Positions 5,334-26,158 of a DNA stretch of 43,813 bases are shown one piece after another. The stretch spans positions 1 to 43,813 of the forward strand of contig VFFB01000007.1 in the NCBI GenBank assembly GCA_018882585.1, written 5' to 3'. This stretch comes from Candidatus Kapaibacterium sp. GTDB lineage: Bacteria; Bacteroidota; Ignavibacteria; Kapaibacteriales; Kapaibacteriaceae. The notes under the pieces are model-generated. The model had not been told where the DNA came from. It saw only the letters and a list, made by a program, of their open reading frames with translations, and did no database searches. Numbering within the stretch: position 1 is the first letter of the stretch; every line of letters starts with the position of its first letter. The position numbers and the translations under genes were made by a program.

Positions 5334-5990
5334 TTAGAATCCGCGCTTGAGTTTCGACGTCAGTTTTTCTTCGACGACGGACCTGCCTTGGGCAGAGAGC
5401 AGGCCAAGGCCGATGACGCTTTGGCGGAACGTGAAGGCCTTCGCCAGTGGAAAGTCACGTCCGCGCATCAGCCAAGCCAGGAAGATCCCATCGGAAATGC
5501 CTGTTTCGAGTTCGGCAAAAGCCGTGGCATCGATATCGTGGAACCAGCCGGCCGCCGTCAGTTCTCGGGTGAGGGATGCACCAAGATCACGCAGGTATGT
5601 ACGCATGCGTCGCACGCGCTCCAGAAACGCCGGGTTGTCCGTCCGAAGAGCGTGTGCCCAGAACTCAAGCAGCAGTGGTGCCTGTTCGGCGCGTGATTCG
5701 TAGAACTCCACGGCGCTTTCGCGGATGGCGTCGACCTTGGACATGGCATCGGCAGCTGCGGCAACCCGGTTGCTGATCGTTTGTTCGAACTCGCCCATCC
5801 ATGCATCGTAGATGGCCAGGAAGAGTTCTTCTTTCGTTCGGAAGTATTCGTAGATCGTGCCTTTGCCAATGTCTGCCTTGGAGGCGATGTCCTGCATCTT
5901 CGTTGCATGGTAGCCGTGGCGGGCGAATACGTCCGCGGCGTGCCGAACGATGTCGGCGCGTTTGGCGATGCGGTCAACGATGGCGGGCAT
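5334..5990 (-). CDS. TetR/AcrR family transcriptional regulator
   Basis: The 218-residue protein has the typical TetR N-terminal helix-turn-helix: RHAADVFARHGYHATKMQDIASKADIGKGTIYEYF at about residues 16-49 in outline (A-VFARHGY, IA-KADIGKGTIY-YF), followed by FRTKEELF and a helical ligand-binding C-terminal domain. It would bind an operator as a dimer and release it on ligand binding. The ATG at 5990 is one base after the TAA (5992-5994) of the thioredoxin-fold gene, so it is very likely co-transcribed as the last gene of the transaldolase operon. Its target and ligand are not visible; autoregulation of that operon is possible. Confidence 0.92.
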   Translation of the reverse strand: MPAIVDRIAKRADIVRHAADVFARHGYHATKMQDIASKADIGKGTIYEYFRTKEELFLAIYDAWMGEFEQTISNRVAAAADAMSKVDAIRESAVEFYESRAEQAPLLLEFWAHALRTDNPAFLERVRRMRTYLRDLGASLTRELTAAGWFHDIDATAFAELETGISDGIFLAWLMRGRDFPLAKAFTFRQSVIGLGLLSAQGRSVVEEKLTSKLKRGF

Positions 5991-15955: not shown

Positions 15956-16888
15956 TCAACAGACGGCGGCATCCATGAGCTGCATGCCATGCAGACGATA
16001 CGAGATACGTGTCCGAACGCCTACGGGCAGCGTCAGCTTTTTGGCCTGATGTCCATACATCACGTTCGAGATCACGGGACCGCTCGCAGATGCGGCAAAC
16101 TCCGACAGCACTTCCTCGACCGGCCGATGCGGCGTTGACGTCGTGCGCTGTTCCGACTGTGTGAAGCTACCGAAACCTACCGCAGCGGCATCGCGCAGTG
16201 CGCCCGCCAGACGCAGCTGCGTCAGCATTCGATCGATACGGTACGTATCCTCGCCCACATCCTCCAGAACAAGCACTGCCCCCTTCACCATGGGCATGTA
16301 GGGCGTGCCAAGCAGGTGCGAGATCATCGTCAGGTTACCAGGAAGCAATGGTCCGACGGCATCGCCGGACCGGAGCCGGTGTATCGGTTGCGATTGGCGG
16401 ATTGTACCCAGTGGACGCGTGCTTGTAAGTACCCGCCAAAACCACGCTTCACTCTCGGCATCCACCGTGTCGGCGAAATCGACACTCGGCAGCATGCCAC
16501 TGAACGTCACCAACTTAAGTCGCTTCCACAAGGCCAGCTGTAAGGCCGTAACATCACTGAATCCGACAATGATCTTCGGATGTCGACGGAACAGACTGTA
16601 GTCCAACCCATCAAGCATTCTGGGCGTACCATATCCACCCCGGGCGCAGAAGATTGCATCGATCCGGGGATCTCGTATCATGGCATGAAGGTCGTCGAGA
16701 CGTTCCTGGTCGGTGCCTGCAAGGTAGGCTCCGTGCACCTTGGACGCATTGACGCCCACCTCGACACGGTATCCGATCGATTCCAGATAGGCAATACCAC
16801 GTTCCAGACGGGCGAAATCGCGCTGTGGCGACGACGGTGAAACGATGCCGATCGTGCCACCCTTAGGAAGGGCCCTTGGTACGTACAT
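15956..16888 (-). CDS. ldcA: Muramoyltetrapeptide (LD-) carboxypeptidase, S66 family
   Basis: A 310-residue cytoplasmic-type protein with the S66 triad in place: Ser111 in VGFSDVTAL, Glu209 in LVLEDVGED and His280 in MYGHQAKK. The N-terminal ALPKGGTIGIVSPSS and the CARGGYGTPRML segment are also family signatures. LdcA removes the terminal D-Ala from murein tetrapeptides after import of wall fragments, preventing their re-use in wrong form. The ATG at 16888 (MYVPRALPKGG) was chosen over 16945, which adds residues encoded within the palindromic intergenic region. It faces the convergent BadF-type kinase gene with a 12-bp gap and diverges from the glycine-rich cargo gene. Confidence 0.92.
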   Translation of the reverse strand: MYVPRALPKGGTIGIVSPSSPQRDFARLERGIAYLESIGYRVEVGVNASKVHGAYLAGTDQERLDDLHAMIRDPRIDAIFCARGGYGTPRMLDGLDYSLFRRHPKIIVGFSDVTALQLALWKRLKLVTFSGMLPSVDFADTVDAESEAWFWRVLTSTRPLGTIRQSQPIHRLRSGDAVGPLLPGNLTMISHLLGTPYMPMVKGAVLVLEDVGEDTYRIDRMLTQLRLAGALRDAAAVGFGSFTQSEQRTTSTPHRPVEEVLSEFAASASGPVISNVMYGHQAKKLTLPVGVRTRISYRLHGMQLMDAAVC

Positions 16889-16911
16889 ATTCGGAAAATG
16901 TGTTAGGTTCG

Positions 16912-16960
16912 TGTGGAAAACTCTTGACAAAGAGTCGATAAACATATCGGTTTTTCCACA
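16912..16960. promoter_or_regulatory. Nested palindrome with DnaA-box-like arms
   Basis: Outer arms TGTGGAAAA (16912-16920) and TTTTCCACA (16952-16960) are exact inverted copies. Between them lie two small hairpins: CTCTT/AAGAG around GACA (16921-16934) and CGATA/TATCG around AACA (16936-16949). Together they could fold into a three-way junction on either strand. Each outer arm matches the relaxed DnaA box TTWTNCACA. TTGACA at 16924-16929 is also present. The element lies in the 138-bp AT-richer gap between divergent ldcA and the glycine-rich gene. Regulation of one or both genes is likely; the binding factor is unknown. Confidence 0.45.
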
Positions 16961-17010
16961 AAAACCCGAAATGGCACAATTCTTGAATACGTCAATGGCT
17001 CTTCAAGGAA

Positions 17011-17026: not shown

Positions 17027-19555
17027 ATGATGCTACGTGCTACTCGCTTTCATGCGGCTTTGGTCATGGTTGCCTTGGCAACCATTGGAACCAGTGCGCA
17101 ATCAACGATAGGGGGCATCGTAAACGACTATGCAGTTGTCCTCGAGATGCGGTCCTGTGATTCCAGCGTCGTGGTGGATCAGCCGGGACCGTTCCGAGCT
17201 GGCGACAAGGTGATGATCATCCAGATGAAGGGGGCGACGGCTCGTGCGGTGAATGATTCGGCGACAACCGGATTGTTGATCGATATTGGGAATGCCGGCA
17301 CGATGGAGTTCCGGAATGTGGAACGCGTGGAAGGTTCGAAGATCACGTTCACGACGAACCTTGTGAACAGCTACGAAACCGAGAATCTCGTTCAGCTTGT
17401 ACGTGTTCCAACCTATGCAGCCGCCGTTGTCACGTCCACACTGAAAGCAAAACCATGGGACGGAAAGACCGGAGGAGTGCTTAGCATCTGGGTAGACGGT
17501 ATCCTTGGCATGCGTTCCGACATCGACGGGTCGGCATCGGGATACAGAGGAGGCATGCGCTCCGGATTCGCGAGCGAATGCGATAGAACCGAGGTCTTTA
17601 CCGTTGGTGCTGATCGCGCAGGCGGTTACAAAGGCGAAACGGTCGTTCTGGACATGAACGTTGGCTCACGTGGTCCGTGGGTCAGCGGTGGTGGCGGAGG
17701 TAACGCATTAAACGCCGGCGGTGGCGGCGGTGGCAACGGTGGTGTGGGCGGACGCGGCGGTGACGCCAGTACGTACTGCATCAAGCGGCCAGACGTTGGT
17801 GGGTGGGGTGGATACGCCGTGGCCGACCAGTATGGTGACCATCGATTCCTCATGGGCGGCGGCGGTGGCGGCGGCCACGAGAACCGCGGCAACATGGAGG
17901 CTACCGATGGCGGTGCCGGCGGTGGTTTTGTATTCATCCACGCCGGGGCGCTCCAGAGTCTTGGAGGCTCCATCCTCTCGCGCGGCGGAACCCCGTCGCG
18001 TGCCTCGGGCTGGGATGGTGCAGGCGGTGGTGGCGCCGGTGGAACGATCGTCATCGAAAGTGATACCATCCTGGGTTCCGTGACAGCCGATGTTCAAGGC
18101 GGCAAGGGTGGCGACGTGGGATACTCTCCCGAACAGGGTACGGTCTACGTTGCTCACGGCCCGGGCGGCGGCGGAGGCGGAGGAGTGGTGATCTTGAATA
18201 GGCCGCATTCCGGCATCACACCGGTACTGCTCGGAGGACAGCCCGGTACGCACATCGAGCCGCTCAACGAGGCCTACATGAAGAGTCGCAACGCAACGGC
18301 CGGCATGGCCGGAGCCGTGCGGTACGGGTTCTCCTGGCGTACGCCCAAGCGCTTCGACTTCTATGTGAACGGCAATGGACTGATCTGCGAAGGCGATACG
18401 GCCGTGTTCACCGCCGCACCCGGCTTTGTGAGCTACCTGTGGAGCAACGGCGACACCACGCGGTCGGGCCGCTTCACGGCAGCAGGTGAAACGACCATCA
18501 CGACGATCGACAGCATCGGCTGCGTGCGGGTGAATAATGGTCCGACCGTTGAGTTCAATACGCCCAAGTTCACGACAAATCCGACACTTGACTTTGGCCC
18601 GTGCGACATGCTTCGCACCTATCAGCGTAAACACACGATTCGTAACACCGACGACGAAGTTGTGACGATCAGCAATCTGACGGTTCCCGCCGGATTCACC
18701 CTTGTTGATCCCACGGTGTTCCCCCTGTCCATCGCTCCGGGCGGATCGTATGACATCACCCTGAGTTTTACCCCGAGCGAAGACAAAGAGTACGTCGGTA
18801 TGATGCATATCGATGTCGATCGGCCTTGCCGCGGCGAAGCCGACGTTGAGCTCAAGGGGTCCGTCACGCCGATCTTCGTGACCTTCCTCGTACCCGACAC
18901 GACAGGGAAGATCGGCGATGAAGGGTTTGGCATTCCGATCCGCGTAAAGCTTGAGCCCGATTCGGCGACCATGATGAACATCACCTTCGGCATCGACGTT
19001 ACTGTCGACAGCCGCATGTTCAAACTTGATAGTGTCTCGAACGGAACACTGATCGGTGACATCATCGACAACATGACGAACCTGCGGACGATAACGCTGC
19101 AGTTCGACAGCGTGAGCTTCGCTCCGGGATGGAATGACCTTACCCGGCTCTTCGGCCGTATCATGTCGGCACCGGTGCTGACATCTCCGATCAACATCCC
19201 GGTACAGCGCTGGATCCGCCAGATACAGCGTCCGATCACGACGGTAGACCCCGGTACCCTCTCTGCCGATTCCAGCTGTTACAAGGAAGGCCGCCCAATC
19301 AAACTGTCGGCCATGCCGGTGCTGAACATCATTGCCAATCCCTCGCGCGAGCCGGTCGTCGAAGTCATAACGTCCATCAACGGAGCTTACTCCGTAGACA
19401 TTCTCGACGTTGCCGGACGCAAACTGCAGACCATTCCGGTTGAACCTTCCAACCAGATCGTGACGATTCCTCTGCGCGGTCTGCCTTCAGGGTCATACGT
19501 TGTTCGTTATTCCACGCCGGTGAACGTGCTATCGGCTCGTGCTATAGTGGAATGA
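17027..19555 (+). CDS. Glycine-rich secreted protein with T9SS sorting domain
   Basis: The 842-residue protein has a signal peptide (LVMVALATIGTSAQ). Residues ~35-215 are a beta-rich domain (DKVMIIQMKGA). Residues ~218-390 are glycine-rich with runs of 5-7 Gly alternating with HxG/NxG-type linkers (GGRGGDAS, GGGGAGGT), punctuated by hydrophobic strands. Then come an immunoglobulin-like 'SYLWSNGDTT' domain (~450-500), a choice-of-anchor D-like segment (LDFGPC... to ELKGSV, ~520-610), a cohesin-like beta-sandwich (~615-730) and a T9SS type A sorting domain (YSVDILDVAGRKLQ, GLPSGSYVVRY). It is expected on the cell surface. The Gly-rich part could form polyglycine-II helices as in some adhesins, but this is inference. 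Alternative ATG at 17030. Confidence 0.82.
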   Translation: MMLRATRFHAALVMVALATIGTSAQSTIGGIVNDYAVVLEMRSCDSSVVVDQPGPFRAGDKVMIIQMKGATARAVNDSATTGLLIDIGNAGTMEFRNVERVEGSKITFTTNLVNSYETENLVQLVRVPTYAAAVVTSTLKAKPWDGKTGGVLSIWVDGILGMRSDIDGSASGYRGGMRSGFASECDRTEVFTVGADRAGGYKGETVVLDMNVGSRGPWVSGGGGGNALNAGGGGGGNGGVGGRGGDASTYCIKRPDVGGWGGYAVADQYGDHRFLMGGGGGGGHENRGNMEATDGGAGGGFVFIHAGALQSLGGSILSRGGTPSRASGWDGAGGGGAGGTIVIESDTILGSVTADVQGGKGGDVGYSPEQGTVYVAHGPGGGGGGGVVILNRPHSGITPVLLGGQPGTHIEPLNEAYMKSRNATAGMAGAVRYGFSWRTPKRFDFYVNGNGLICEGDTAVFTAAPGFVSYLWSNGDTTRSGRFTAAGETTITTIDSIGCVRVNNGPTVEFNTPKFTTNPTLDFGPCDMLRTYQRKHTIRNTDDEVVTISNLTVPAGFTLVDPTVFPLSIAPGGSYDITLSFTPSEDKEYVGMMHIDVDRPCRGEADVELKGSVTPIFVTFLVPDTTGKIGDEGFGIPIRVKLEPDSATMMNITFGIDVTVDSRMFKLDSVSNGTLIGDIIDNMTNLRTITLQFDSVSFAPGWNDLTRLFGRIMSAPVLTSPINIPVQRWIRQIQRPITTVDPGTLSADSSCYKEGRPIKLSAMPVLNIIANPSREPVVEVITSINGAYSVDILDVAGRKLQTIPVEPSNQIVTIPLRGLPSGSYVVRYSTPVNVLSARAIVE
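17680..18190 (+). repeat. Glycine-codon-rich low-complexity tract
   Basis: Imperfect GGTGGCGGC-type tracts (about 17688-17765, 17858-17930, 18018-18045, 18160-18186) encode poly-Gly runs within the secreted protein. Between them the protein is ordinary, so these are coding repeats, not an intergenic array. Confidence 0.7.
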
Positions 19556-23337: not shown

Positions 23338-23963
23338 GCGAACTGTACCGTAAGAGTGATAACATCGTCCAATCGTGCAGTGGCCACATCACCCGCCATG
23401 ACGCGGGCGACACCTTCAGGAGTGCCCGTAAAAATACAATCGCCTTCCTGCAGGGTGAAGATGCTGTCGAGATAATCAACCAGGATAGCAACAGAGCGTT
23501 CCATCAGCCCCGTCGATCCATGCTGCCGCTGCTCGCCATTCACTTCAAGCGAAAGGGTAAAGGGGCCATGGCCGATCTGCGATGCAGGAACGACGTGCGA
23601 GACCGGAGCCGACCGGGCCCACGACTTTGCCGTTGCCCAGGGCTCGCCACGCTGTTTAGCGGCTGCTTGCAGGTCGCGCGCCGTCAGATCGAGCCCAACG
23701 GCATAACCGGCGATGGTTCGGTCCGGGCCCATCACAACGACGAGCTCCACTTCGTGGTGAACATTCGTAGAGAACGACGGAAGCGTGATCACGCTATCGG
23801 TAGCAGCGTACGCCGATGGTGGCTTCAGAAACACGATGGGATCCGTGGGAACGGCAGCACCCATCTCGGCGGCATGTGCTGCATAGTTACGGCCGATGCA
23901 GTACATCGTACCAACGGGCATCGTTGTGCCGTCCGTGAACATCCAGTGTGGTCGATCCGTCAT
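23334..23963 (-). CDS. Fumarylacetoacetate hydrolase (FAH)-family protein
   Basis: A 209-residue single-domain FAH-fold protein. Motifs include YCIGRNYAAHAAEMG, PIVFLKPPSA, HHEVELVVVMG (metal-binding Glu), YAVGLDLTARDLQ and CIFTGTPEGVARVMAGD in outline, all typical of the FAHD1/YcgM-like branch. Known members decarboxylate oxaloacetate or hydrolyse acylpyruvates and related beta-diketo acids using Mg2+. The substrate here is not predictable. It shares an operon with kynurenine monooxygenase, but three lipoprotein genes lie between them. Its ATG overlaps the PBP1A stop by one base (TGATG). Confidence 0.85.
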   Translation of the reverse strand: MTDRPHWMFTDGTTMPVGTMYCIGRNYAAHAAEMGAAVPTDPIVFLKPPSAYAATDSVITLPSFSTNVHHEVELVVVMGPDRTIAGYAVGLDLTARDLQAAAKQRGEPWATAKSWARSAPVSHVVPASQIGHGPFTLSLEVNGEQRQHGSTGLMERSVAILVDYLDSIFTLQEGDCIFTGTPEGVARVMAGDVATARLDDVITLTVQFA

Positions 23964-26158
23964 CAGTCTTCTCTCCGTTTCGTAGCCTTGGCCGGTGTGG
24001 GAGGTTCTGTGGGGGGCGCCGTGCCGGAAGCCGGCGGCGCGTCCGAGATCTCTTCGGAAGGTGGGTTCAACAACTGATCGACCGAAACGGTATCCGTTGA
24101 ATCCCGATACACGGCAAACGTCGTCTGCCGATACCGGTTCGACGGATCGGCATACACCTTGCCCATCAGACGTCCCCAGATGGGGGCCGCTGCGCGACCG
24201 CCCTGACCGTAGTCGCCCGTGAATTGGATACGTCGATCATCGAAGCCAACCCAAACGCCACAGGCAAGCTGCGGCGTGATACCAACGAACCATGCATCGG
24301 CAAAGTCGTTCGTTGTGCCTGTCTTTCCGGCTGCGTCATGCTTGTAGAAGCGACGGATGTTCGAGGCTGTGCCGCCGTCGACGACGCCGCGCATCAGCGA
24401 GATCATCGTTGACGCAACATGCGGGTCGATTGCATCACTCACGGTCTTGGGAAGGCGCGCCTCGTACAGGATGTTGCCCATGCGGTCTTCGATGCGGGTG
24501 ATGGCAGCCGATGGAACAGAGACGCCTTGGTTACCAAAGGCGGCGTAGGCCGACGTCATTTCCAGCGGAGAAACTTCGCCTGCACCCAGCGCCAGCGCCG
24601 GTACCGGGATAAGACTTGACGTGATGCCAAGGCGTTGACAAAGGTTGACGACCTTCGACGGTGATGTGTGCTCGGTGATCAGGCGCGCAGCCACGCTGTT
24701 CGTCGAGAACTTGAGTGCCGTCCGAAGCGAGATCGGTCCACCGTTCTTGGACGTACCCTGCGGAGCCCATACTTCGCCGGTCTCGGGATTGGTGTAGCTG
24801 AAGGGACCGCTCTCGATCATCGTTTCGGCGGTCAGACCATTCTCGAGTGCCGAGGCATAGACAAAGGGTTTGAACGACGAGCCGGGCTGTCGCTTGATCT
24901 GCGTGACGTGGTTGAGCGAATAGCGGGAACCTGTGGCACGCATGCTGCGCGGAGAGCCACCTACCATGGCAAGGATGGCTCCTGTGTGCGGGTCAAGCAC
25001 AACAAGGCCCACCTGAATCGTTGTGGCATCCTTGCGGACACTATCAACGAAGTCCTTGTCTTGCCGTAGGCGTTGGACGATGCGTTTGCGTTCTTCGGCC
25101 GAGGCATTGATATACTCGGGGCGTCGCGAAGCCGCCTTCGTTATCAGGGACATCAGCAGGTCGTTCCGGCCGCGCCACGACCATGTCCGATCGAACATCT
25201 CCTGATACTCGGCAAGGTGTTCCGCTACCGCTTCGTTGGCGTATCGCTGTATCTGCGAATTGATCGTTGTGTGAATGATCAAGCCATCGCGATACAGGTC
25301 GTAATCCTTGATGCGGTCACTCGTTTCGCCATCGCGACTGAGCTGACGTCGAACCATTTCGACGAAGTGCGGGGCGATGCCGCGACGTACTTCGCGGGGC
25401 GACGGCTTCGTGAGCGGCTCGGCAACGGCACGCGTCCATGCCGCGTCATCCAAGTAGTCTTCGTCGTGCATCATTCCAAGGATCAGGTTGCGTCGCTCGA
25501 CACCTTGCTCGTCATCCGAAGCATACTTGTACGGATTCTTGAACAGACCCACCAGGTAGGCACATTCTGCTGCCGTCAGATCCATGGGCTGTTTGTTGAA
25601 GTAGACCTGTGCTGCCACCCGAATACCGTATGCACCGCGACCATAGTAAACCGTATTAGCATACAGTTCAAGGATCTCGTTCTTGGTATACGTCCGCTCG
25701 ATCTGAATTGCCGTCCACGCCTCGCGGATCTTGCGCGCCAGCGTCTGCTCCTGCGTGAAGAACAGGTTGCGTGCCAGCTGTTGCGTGATCGTGGATGCTC
25801 CCTCGCGGGTACGCATGGCAAAAACGTTCTTGACGGCAGCCTTCAGGATGCGCATCGTGTGAACGCCCCAATGGTCACGGAATGCCCTGTCTTCGGTAGC
25901 GACAAGTGCATGGATGAAGTGCTGCGGGATCGAGTCGTACGGAGCGTATGTGCGCCGGGTGATGGCAAAGTGCTCCAGCAGCACGCCGTCGGCACTGAAG
26001 ACCTGCGTGGCAAGTTCCTGTGGGGGATTCTCGAGCTGTTCCAGCGTTGGCATGTTATCGTCGTTGATCACGACCACGACGTAGAGAAAGACGACGGCCA
26101 GCAGCCCAAGAAAGCCGATGATCAGCCAACGCATGTATGGGGGGAGCTGATTGATCAT
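23963..26158 (-). CDS. Class A penicillin-binding protein (PBP1A-type)
   Basis: The 731-residue protein has an N-terminal membrane anchor (WLIIGFLGLLAVVFLYVVVV), a GT51 glycosyltransferase domain with the catalytic Glu90 in TEDRAFRDHWG and the motifs GASTITQQLARN and ELYANTVYYGRGAYGI, and a transpeptidase domain with S427xxK430 (GSSFKP), S485TN and K612TGTT. It therefore polymerises lipid II and cross-links peptidoglycan on the outer face of the inner membrane. The C-terminal ~50 residues are a Pro/Ala/Thr-rich tail ending in KATKRRED. It overlaps the OmpA-family gene by four bases and the FAH gene by one. Confidence 0.95.
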   Translation of the reverse strand: MINQLPPYMRWLIIGFLGLLAVVFLYVVVVINDDNMPTLEQLENPPQELATQVFSADGVLLEHFAITRRTYAPYDSIPQHFIHALVATEDRAFRDHWGVHTMRILKAAVKNVFAMRTREGASTITQQLARNLFFTQEQTLARKIREAWTAIQIERTYTKNEILELYANTVYYGRGAYGIRVAAQVYFNKQPMDLTAAECAYLVGLFKNPYKYASDDEQGVERRNLILGMMHDEDYLDDAAWTRAVAEPLTKPSPREVRRGIAPHFVEMVRRQLSRDGETSDRIKDYDLYRDGLIIHTTINSQIQRYANEAVAEHLAEYQEMFDRTWSWRGRNDLLMSLITKAASRRPEYINASAEERKRIVQRLRQDKDFVDSVRKDATTIQVGLVVLDPHTGAILAMVGGSPRSMRATGSRYSLNHVTQIKRQPGSSFKPFVYASALENGLTAETMIESGPFSYTNPETGEVWAPQGTSKNGGPISLRTALKFSTNSVAARLITEHTSPSKVVNLCQRLGITSSLIPVPALALGAGEVSPLEMTSAYAAFGNQGVSVPSAAITRIEDRMGNILYEARLPKTVSDAIDPHVASTMISLMRGVVDGGTASNIRRFYKHDAAGKTGTTNDFADAWFVGITPQLACGVWVGFDDRRIQFTGDYGQGGRAAAPIWGRLMGKVYADPSNRYRQTTFAVYRDSTDTVSVDQLLNPPSEEISDAPPASGTAPPTEPPTPAKATKRRED

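Follow-up and report, generated by a model that had tools for sequence, protein, structure and literature searches.

Inverted DnaA-box-like words as a candidate operator in a divergent promoter region of a Kapaibacteriaceae genome

Introduction

A 49-bp palindrome between two divergent genes of "Candidatus Kapaibacterium sp." raises the question of whether it serves as a structure, as a protein-binding site, or not at all. It lies in a stretch of 43,813 nucleotides (contig VFFB01000007.1), analyzed as a whole and referred to here as the window. A preliminary description made from the letters alone had offered three roles for the palindrome: a DnaA-controlled operator, a structured leader RNA, or a minor replication-related site. 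Here, these roles are weighed by comparing the gap with its counterparts in related genomes, following the box word genome-wide, and examining DnaA, the probable origin, a neighboring promoter-like element, and the fold itself. The reading that we favor, at a probability of roughly 0.55 on sequence evidence, is that the palindrome serves as an operator of the DnaA type, with two boxes, in the S66/AgmC-like divergent promoter region.

Architecture of the palindrome and its gap

The stretch at positions 16912 to 16960 reads TGTGGAAAACTCTTGACAAAGAGTCGATAAACATATCGGTTTTTCCACA (49 bp). Its 9-bp outer inverted repeat, with arms TGTGGAAAA and TTTTCCACA, encloses two hairpins (Table 1), the first with a 6-bp stem that shortens to 5 bp when the outer arm is extended. 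Both arms are exact copies of TTTTCCACA, in agreement with the DnaA-box-like pattern TTWTNCACA, and are inverted relative to each other, with 31 bp between the boxes and 40 bp from center to center. They are the only two copies of TTWTCCACA in the window. Folding of 66 nt returned a three-way junction both as RNA (−22.6 kcal/mol; z, −4.5) and as DNA (−15.4; z, −4.7). The nested, junction-forming palindrome and the inverted box-like arms of the preliminary description are thus borne out, as is its AT-richer divergent gap: GC content is 39% versus ∼58%, and the flanking genes face opposite ways from the S66 start codon (∼16888, minus strand) and the ATG of the secreted-protein gene (17027, plus strand).

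This divergent arrangement is kept in most family genomes. The secreted protein has an AgmC-like match that is under that family's curated cutoff and a weak match to the T9SS type A sorting tail, a tail that would point to a lineage of the Bacteroidota type. Scans found no sigma-70 promoter within the palindrome and no intrinsic terminator. A 17-bp identity, TTTTCCACACGAACCTA, links positions 16904 to 16920 of the window (minus strand) with positions 5663 to 5679 of contig C76 of the same genome, both of them promoter regions, and a degenerate form of it occurs at two further sites.

TABLE 1 Coordinates of the palindrome, its neighbors in the window, and related candidate sites
Feature	Position	Strand	Remarks
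S66 LD-carboxypeptidase (muramoyltetrapeptide carboxypeptidase-like) gene	15956..16888	−	True start likely 16888, not the 16945 of the ORF
Left arm, DnaA-box-like 9-mer TTTTCCACA	16912..16920	−	Exact TTWTCCACA match; 23 bp upstream of the S66 start codon
Inner hairpin 1, ACTCTT-GACA-AAGAGT	16920..16935	+	First A common to the left arm; not conserved
Inner hairpin 2, CGATA-AACA-TATCG	16936..16949	+	5-bp stem; not conserved
Right arm, DnaA-box-like 9-mer TTTTCCACA	16952..16960	+	∼12 to 13 bp before the TGGCAC element
Sigma-54-like promoter element TGGCACAATTCTTGAA (TGGCAC-N5-TTG)	16973..16988	+	Form present in 17 of the 22 gaps compared
Secreted glycine-rich protein gene	17027..19555	+	AgmC-like N-terminal region, choice-of-anchor D region, weak T9SS type A sorting-tail match
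Triple box near ftsA-ftsZ	L157 5676-5880 (G000:C116); L158 6205-6407 (G003); L159 7144-7347 (G005)		Candidate DnaA-type regulatory site
Probable family oriC, AT-rich gap on the downstream side of serS, close to mnmG/mnmE	G005:C1:1473352-1473789 (L141); G000:C30 ∼23830-24330 (L204, last 1500 bases)		TCCACA-core boxes

Recurrence of the box in homologous gaps

The S66/secreted-protein gap was compared in 22 family genomes. All relatives compared belong to genera other than that of the window's own genome (G000), and a scan of genome contigs for a congeneric relative returned distant S66 homologues only. The 22 homologous gaps contain nine exact TTWTCCACA boxes, against 0.16 expected from shuffles, and 31 boxes when one mismatch is allowed, against 2.3 expected; the totals take in the window's own gap, which supplies two of the nine exact words, and the counts are not independent across gaps because the genomes are related. 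Exact boxes occur in the gaps of three genera (g1, g2, and g6) and one-mismatch boxes in those of two more (g4 and g3). Seven gaps lack boxes: those of a subclade made up of five genus g3 genomes and those of two other genomes.

Conservation of the arms, on which the preliminary description had staked its proposal, divides between them. In a multiple alignment, the S66-proximal box, corresponding to the left arm, aligns as TGTGGAAAAC in G000 and in four other genomes (G005, G009, G013, and G017). Nothing in the relatives aligns with the right arm; the inverted pair is therefore specific to G000 among the genomes compared, and what is conserved is the single box.

The box word across the genome

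TTWTCCACA occurs 36 times in G000, versus 4 times for its reversed control, and the corresponding counts are 63 versus 37 in G005 and 48 versus 24 in G003. Of the 32 other sites in G000, a crude ORF call places at least 22 between genes, and several of the remainder overlap doubtful ORFs only. Many sites lie 20 to 150 bp upstream of genes that resemble smc, dnaB, gatB, the gene for ribosomal protein S1, and lipoprotein or outer-membrane genes, and pyrB-type genes are also preceded by the word (gene names were assigned by sequence inspection, not by a database scan). Three TTWTCCACA words cluster at the beginning of the gene that precedes ftsA-ftsZ, and this triple cluster recurs in G000, G003, and G005, which represent three genera (Table 1).

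Across all 34 sites, there is no extended consensus beyond the 9-mer; a longer word, TTTTCCACAcgAACC, is common to a few of them. Inverted TGTGG...CCACA pairs at the spacing of the palindrome are not overrepresented in G000 (39 versus 57 in the control), and a genome-wide inverted-pair design was rejected on that count. At a separate locus, off the origin, G005 carries a dense DnaA-box-like cluster of three exact and two near boxes beside lipB-like and lpd-like genes (G005:C1:436073-436352; L100).

DnaA and the replication origin

The DnaA box is TTATCCACA, and DnaA acts also as a transcription factor (PMC8203912, PMC4447404), including at division genes (PMC8203912). DnaA was found in all 30 genomes searched, and that of G000 has the canonical recognition-helix motif GGRDHTT. 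Both arms of the palindrome fall within the DnaA-box definition (TTATNCACA/TTWTCCACA) and within a promoter region.

A replication origin at the gap was at first an attractive reading because dnaA lies 8 to 9 kb from it in G005. In this one-contig relative, GC skew changes from negative to positive at ∼1.465 to 1.49 Mb; the homologous gap is at 1.333 Mb, ∼140 kb from this minimum of the cumulative GC skew, and is therefore not the origin. Within the window, there is no GC-skew switch at the gap. In the skew-minimum region of G005, a Dps-like gene and serS-mnmG border an AT-rich gap of 438 bp that contains DnaA-box-like words, and this serS-adjacent gap is the probable family oriC (Table 1). 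The skew minimum and the oriC-like serS/mnmG region of G005 together led us to reject an origin at the palindrome, and the replication-related site first suggested is, as an origin, abandoned with it.

The words at the probable oriC bear on the reader of the arms. In most family genomes, TCCACA-core words are found downstream of serS (GTTTCCACA, CTATCCACA, and TTGTCCACA). The same region of G000 has the words TGTGGATTGCGTGGATAA and TGTGGACAG, together with TGTGGATT/TGTGGACA words, and no box within the one-mismatch set searched. Boxes at the probable oriC and the arm word thus have the TCCACA core in common, the first three positions vary, and TTWTCCACA is matched imperfectly. Given this common core, DnaA is the foremost candidate for reading the arms; because the first three positions of the oriC boxes vary, we infer this role for DnaA.

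It is possible, if rather improbable, that TTWTCCACA is instead the site of another sequence-specific regulator, or an upstream promoter element. Such a site would fit the many unrelated genes that the word precedes (among them those for outer-membrane proteins, lipoproteins, and ribosomal protein S1 and pyrB-type genes), the better match to TTWTCCACA at promoter sites than at the probable oriC, and the longer word that a few sites have in common. However, the word is the canonical DnaA box, the recognition helix of the G000 DnaA is canonical, the oriC boxes have the TCCACA core, and no extended consensus runs through all 34 sites. We therefore retain DnaA as the preferred reader.

A sigma-54-like element beside the right arm

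Upstream of the secreted-protein gene, a TGGCAY-N5-TTG element is conserved in position in 17 of the 22 homologous gaps, and the G004 gap has a perfect sigma-54 consensus, TGGCACGATGCTTGCT (the consensus form used was TGGCAC-N5-TTGCT [PMC12316311]). The gene rpoN is present in all 10 genomes tested, G000 included. At the −12 GC, the C has mostly given way to G or A, and genome-wide the pattern shows no enrichment; for these two reasons, use of the TGGCAC-N5-TTG element by sigma-54 is put no higher than plausible.

TGGCAY-N5-TTG is rare in the genomes outside the homologous gaps (L002-L026). In several genomes (L003, L014, and L018), a short G-rich/C-rich inverted repeat (e.g., GGAGGGTTACCCTTCC) follows immediately 3′ of TGGCAC-N5-TTG, and the window has TTCTTGAA...TTCAAGGAA at positions 16980 to 17009.

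An unlikely alternative attaches to this element: the inverted repeat could be an enhancer for a sigma-54 activator (bEBP) of the secreted-protein promoter, the resemblance to DnaA boxes being coincidental. The conservation of the element, its perfect form in G004, and the presence of rpoN in every genome tested agree with such an enhancer, as do TGT-N10-ACA palindromes in three relatives (e.g., TGTGGGTAATTCCACA). Nevertheless, the center of the palindrome would fall at about −62, closer than a usual enhancer, and several genomes keep the sigma-54-like element without boxes or without the inverted layout. Conversely, the box word stands at many promoters that lack such an element, and the lack of a genome-wide excess of the element pattern also counts against the enhancer.

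Significance of the fold

As a structure, the palindrome is not exceptional, and the fold alone is weak evidence. The window contains 11 perfect inverted repeats (arms of ≥9 bp and loops of ≤45), and ∼13 other 60-nt segments of it have a larger GC-adjusted folding anomaly. Shuffling the short gap never produced the full nested architecture (0 of 20,000), and dinucleotide shuffling of the whole window produced it 7 times in 400; the latter rate translates into roughly one occurrence by chance in a 2.8-Mb genome, for an architecture that was chosen after the fact. The 49-mer is present as a single copy in the genome, and a dispersed repeat was rejected on this basis. The palindrome has no Rfam match at the gathering threshold.

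The covariation check that the preliminary description had put forward went against a structure conserved across genera: the inner stems and a comparable fold are absent from every relative (all of other genera), and the homologous gaps have no consistent folding excess. With the stems absent, no folding excess, and no Rfam match, a three-way-junction RNA or cruciform was rejected as a conserved feature, and the structured leader RNA originally suggested finds no backing in the stems or in Rfam. A structured RNA leader or a cruciform with a functional three-way junction is, in all, very unlikely; the good RNA and DNA folding (z, ∼−4.5) and the absence of the architecture from the gap shuffles speak for it, whereas the loss of the stems in all relatives, the lack of a folding excess and of an Rfam match, the single genomic copy, and the more anomalous segments elsewhere in the window speak against it. 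The inverted boxes and the AT-rich gap probably give rise to the three-way junction as a side effect, and the palindrome is of little importance as a structure. Least probable of all is a functionless chance palindrome of two unrelated box-like words in an AT-rich gap, for which the 11 inverted repeats and the 7 of 400 shuffled windows leave room, but box-type words in homologous gaps across genera far exceed shuffles, and within the 43.8 kb TTWTCCACA occurs nowhere but in the two arms.

Discussion

Of the roles first proposed, the DnaA-controlled operator fares best, with a promoter-associated and overrepresented word, recurrence in related genera, and a core common to the oriC boxes in its favor; the part of it that names DnaA goes beyond these observations. 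Counting against it are the 31-bp separation of the boxes, the lack of a genome-wide excess of inverted pairs at this spacing, the gaps without boxes, and the imperfect matches at the probable oriC; a different regulator could also have this motif as its site. We propose that the two inverted TTTTCCACA boxes would form an operator between the divergent promoters of the S66 gene and the secreted-protein gene and that their likeliest reader would be DnaA in its role as a transcription regulator. The S66 gene has the left box in its 5′ region, and the probable effect of DnaA there would be to repress or modulate expression, the direction being our supposition. The right box lies just upstream of the putative sigma-54-like promoter of the secreted protein, which sigma-54 may use.

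If DnaA reads the boxes, the gap would belong to a set of a few dozen promoter sites through which, in a poorly studied lineage, the state of replication would be coupled to division, wall, and surface genes. Confirmation would add a further case to the already known role of DnaA as a transcription factor (PMC8203912). A wider scheme is speculative and is advanced with low confidence: in this T9SS-bearing lineage, DnaA might run a broad program through TTWTCCACA boxes (smc, dnaB, ftsA-ftsZ, S66, and surface proteins), linking replication initiation to cell wall recycling and the expression of surface proteins, here together with a sigma-54-type promoter.

Three kinds of known systems invite comparison. 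With bacterial oriC DnaA-box clusters, the locus shares the core word common to the arms and the serS-downstream boxes; it differs in that the window has two boxes only and the homologous gap of G005 is far (∼140 kb) from the skew minimum. Sigma-54 promoters with activator palindromes (PMC12316311) are similar in the position-conserved TGGCAC-N5-TTG, rpoN, and an upstream palindromic box, but here the −12 C is mostly G or A and the palindrome is nearer than the usual enhancer. The third comparison is with known DnaA-box sites outside oriC, such as those of E. coli dnaA and purH, Caulobacter gcrA and ftsZ, and B. subtilis promoters (PMC8203912, PMC11317965, PMC4447404). Like these, the system described here has exact TTWTCCACA words in promoter regions, clusters of related boxes, and boxes at cell division genes. 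E. coli DnaA prefers box pairs 2 to 3 bp apart (PMC11317965); the arm boxes, in contrast, are inverted and 31 bp apart, although this preference is no defining rule in other phyla. Unlike the known sites, the present one is predicted from sequence alone, and its targets would be a cell wall carboxypeptidase and a secreted protein.
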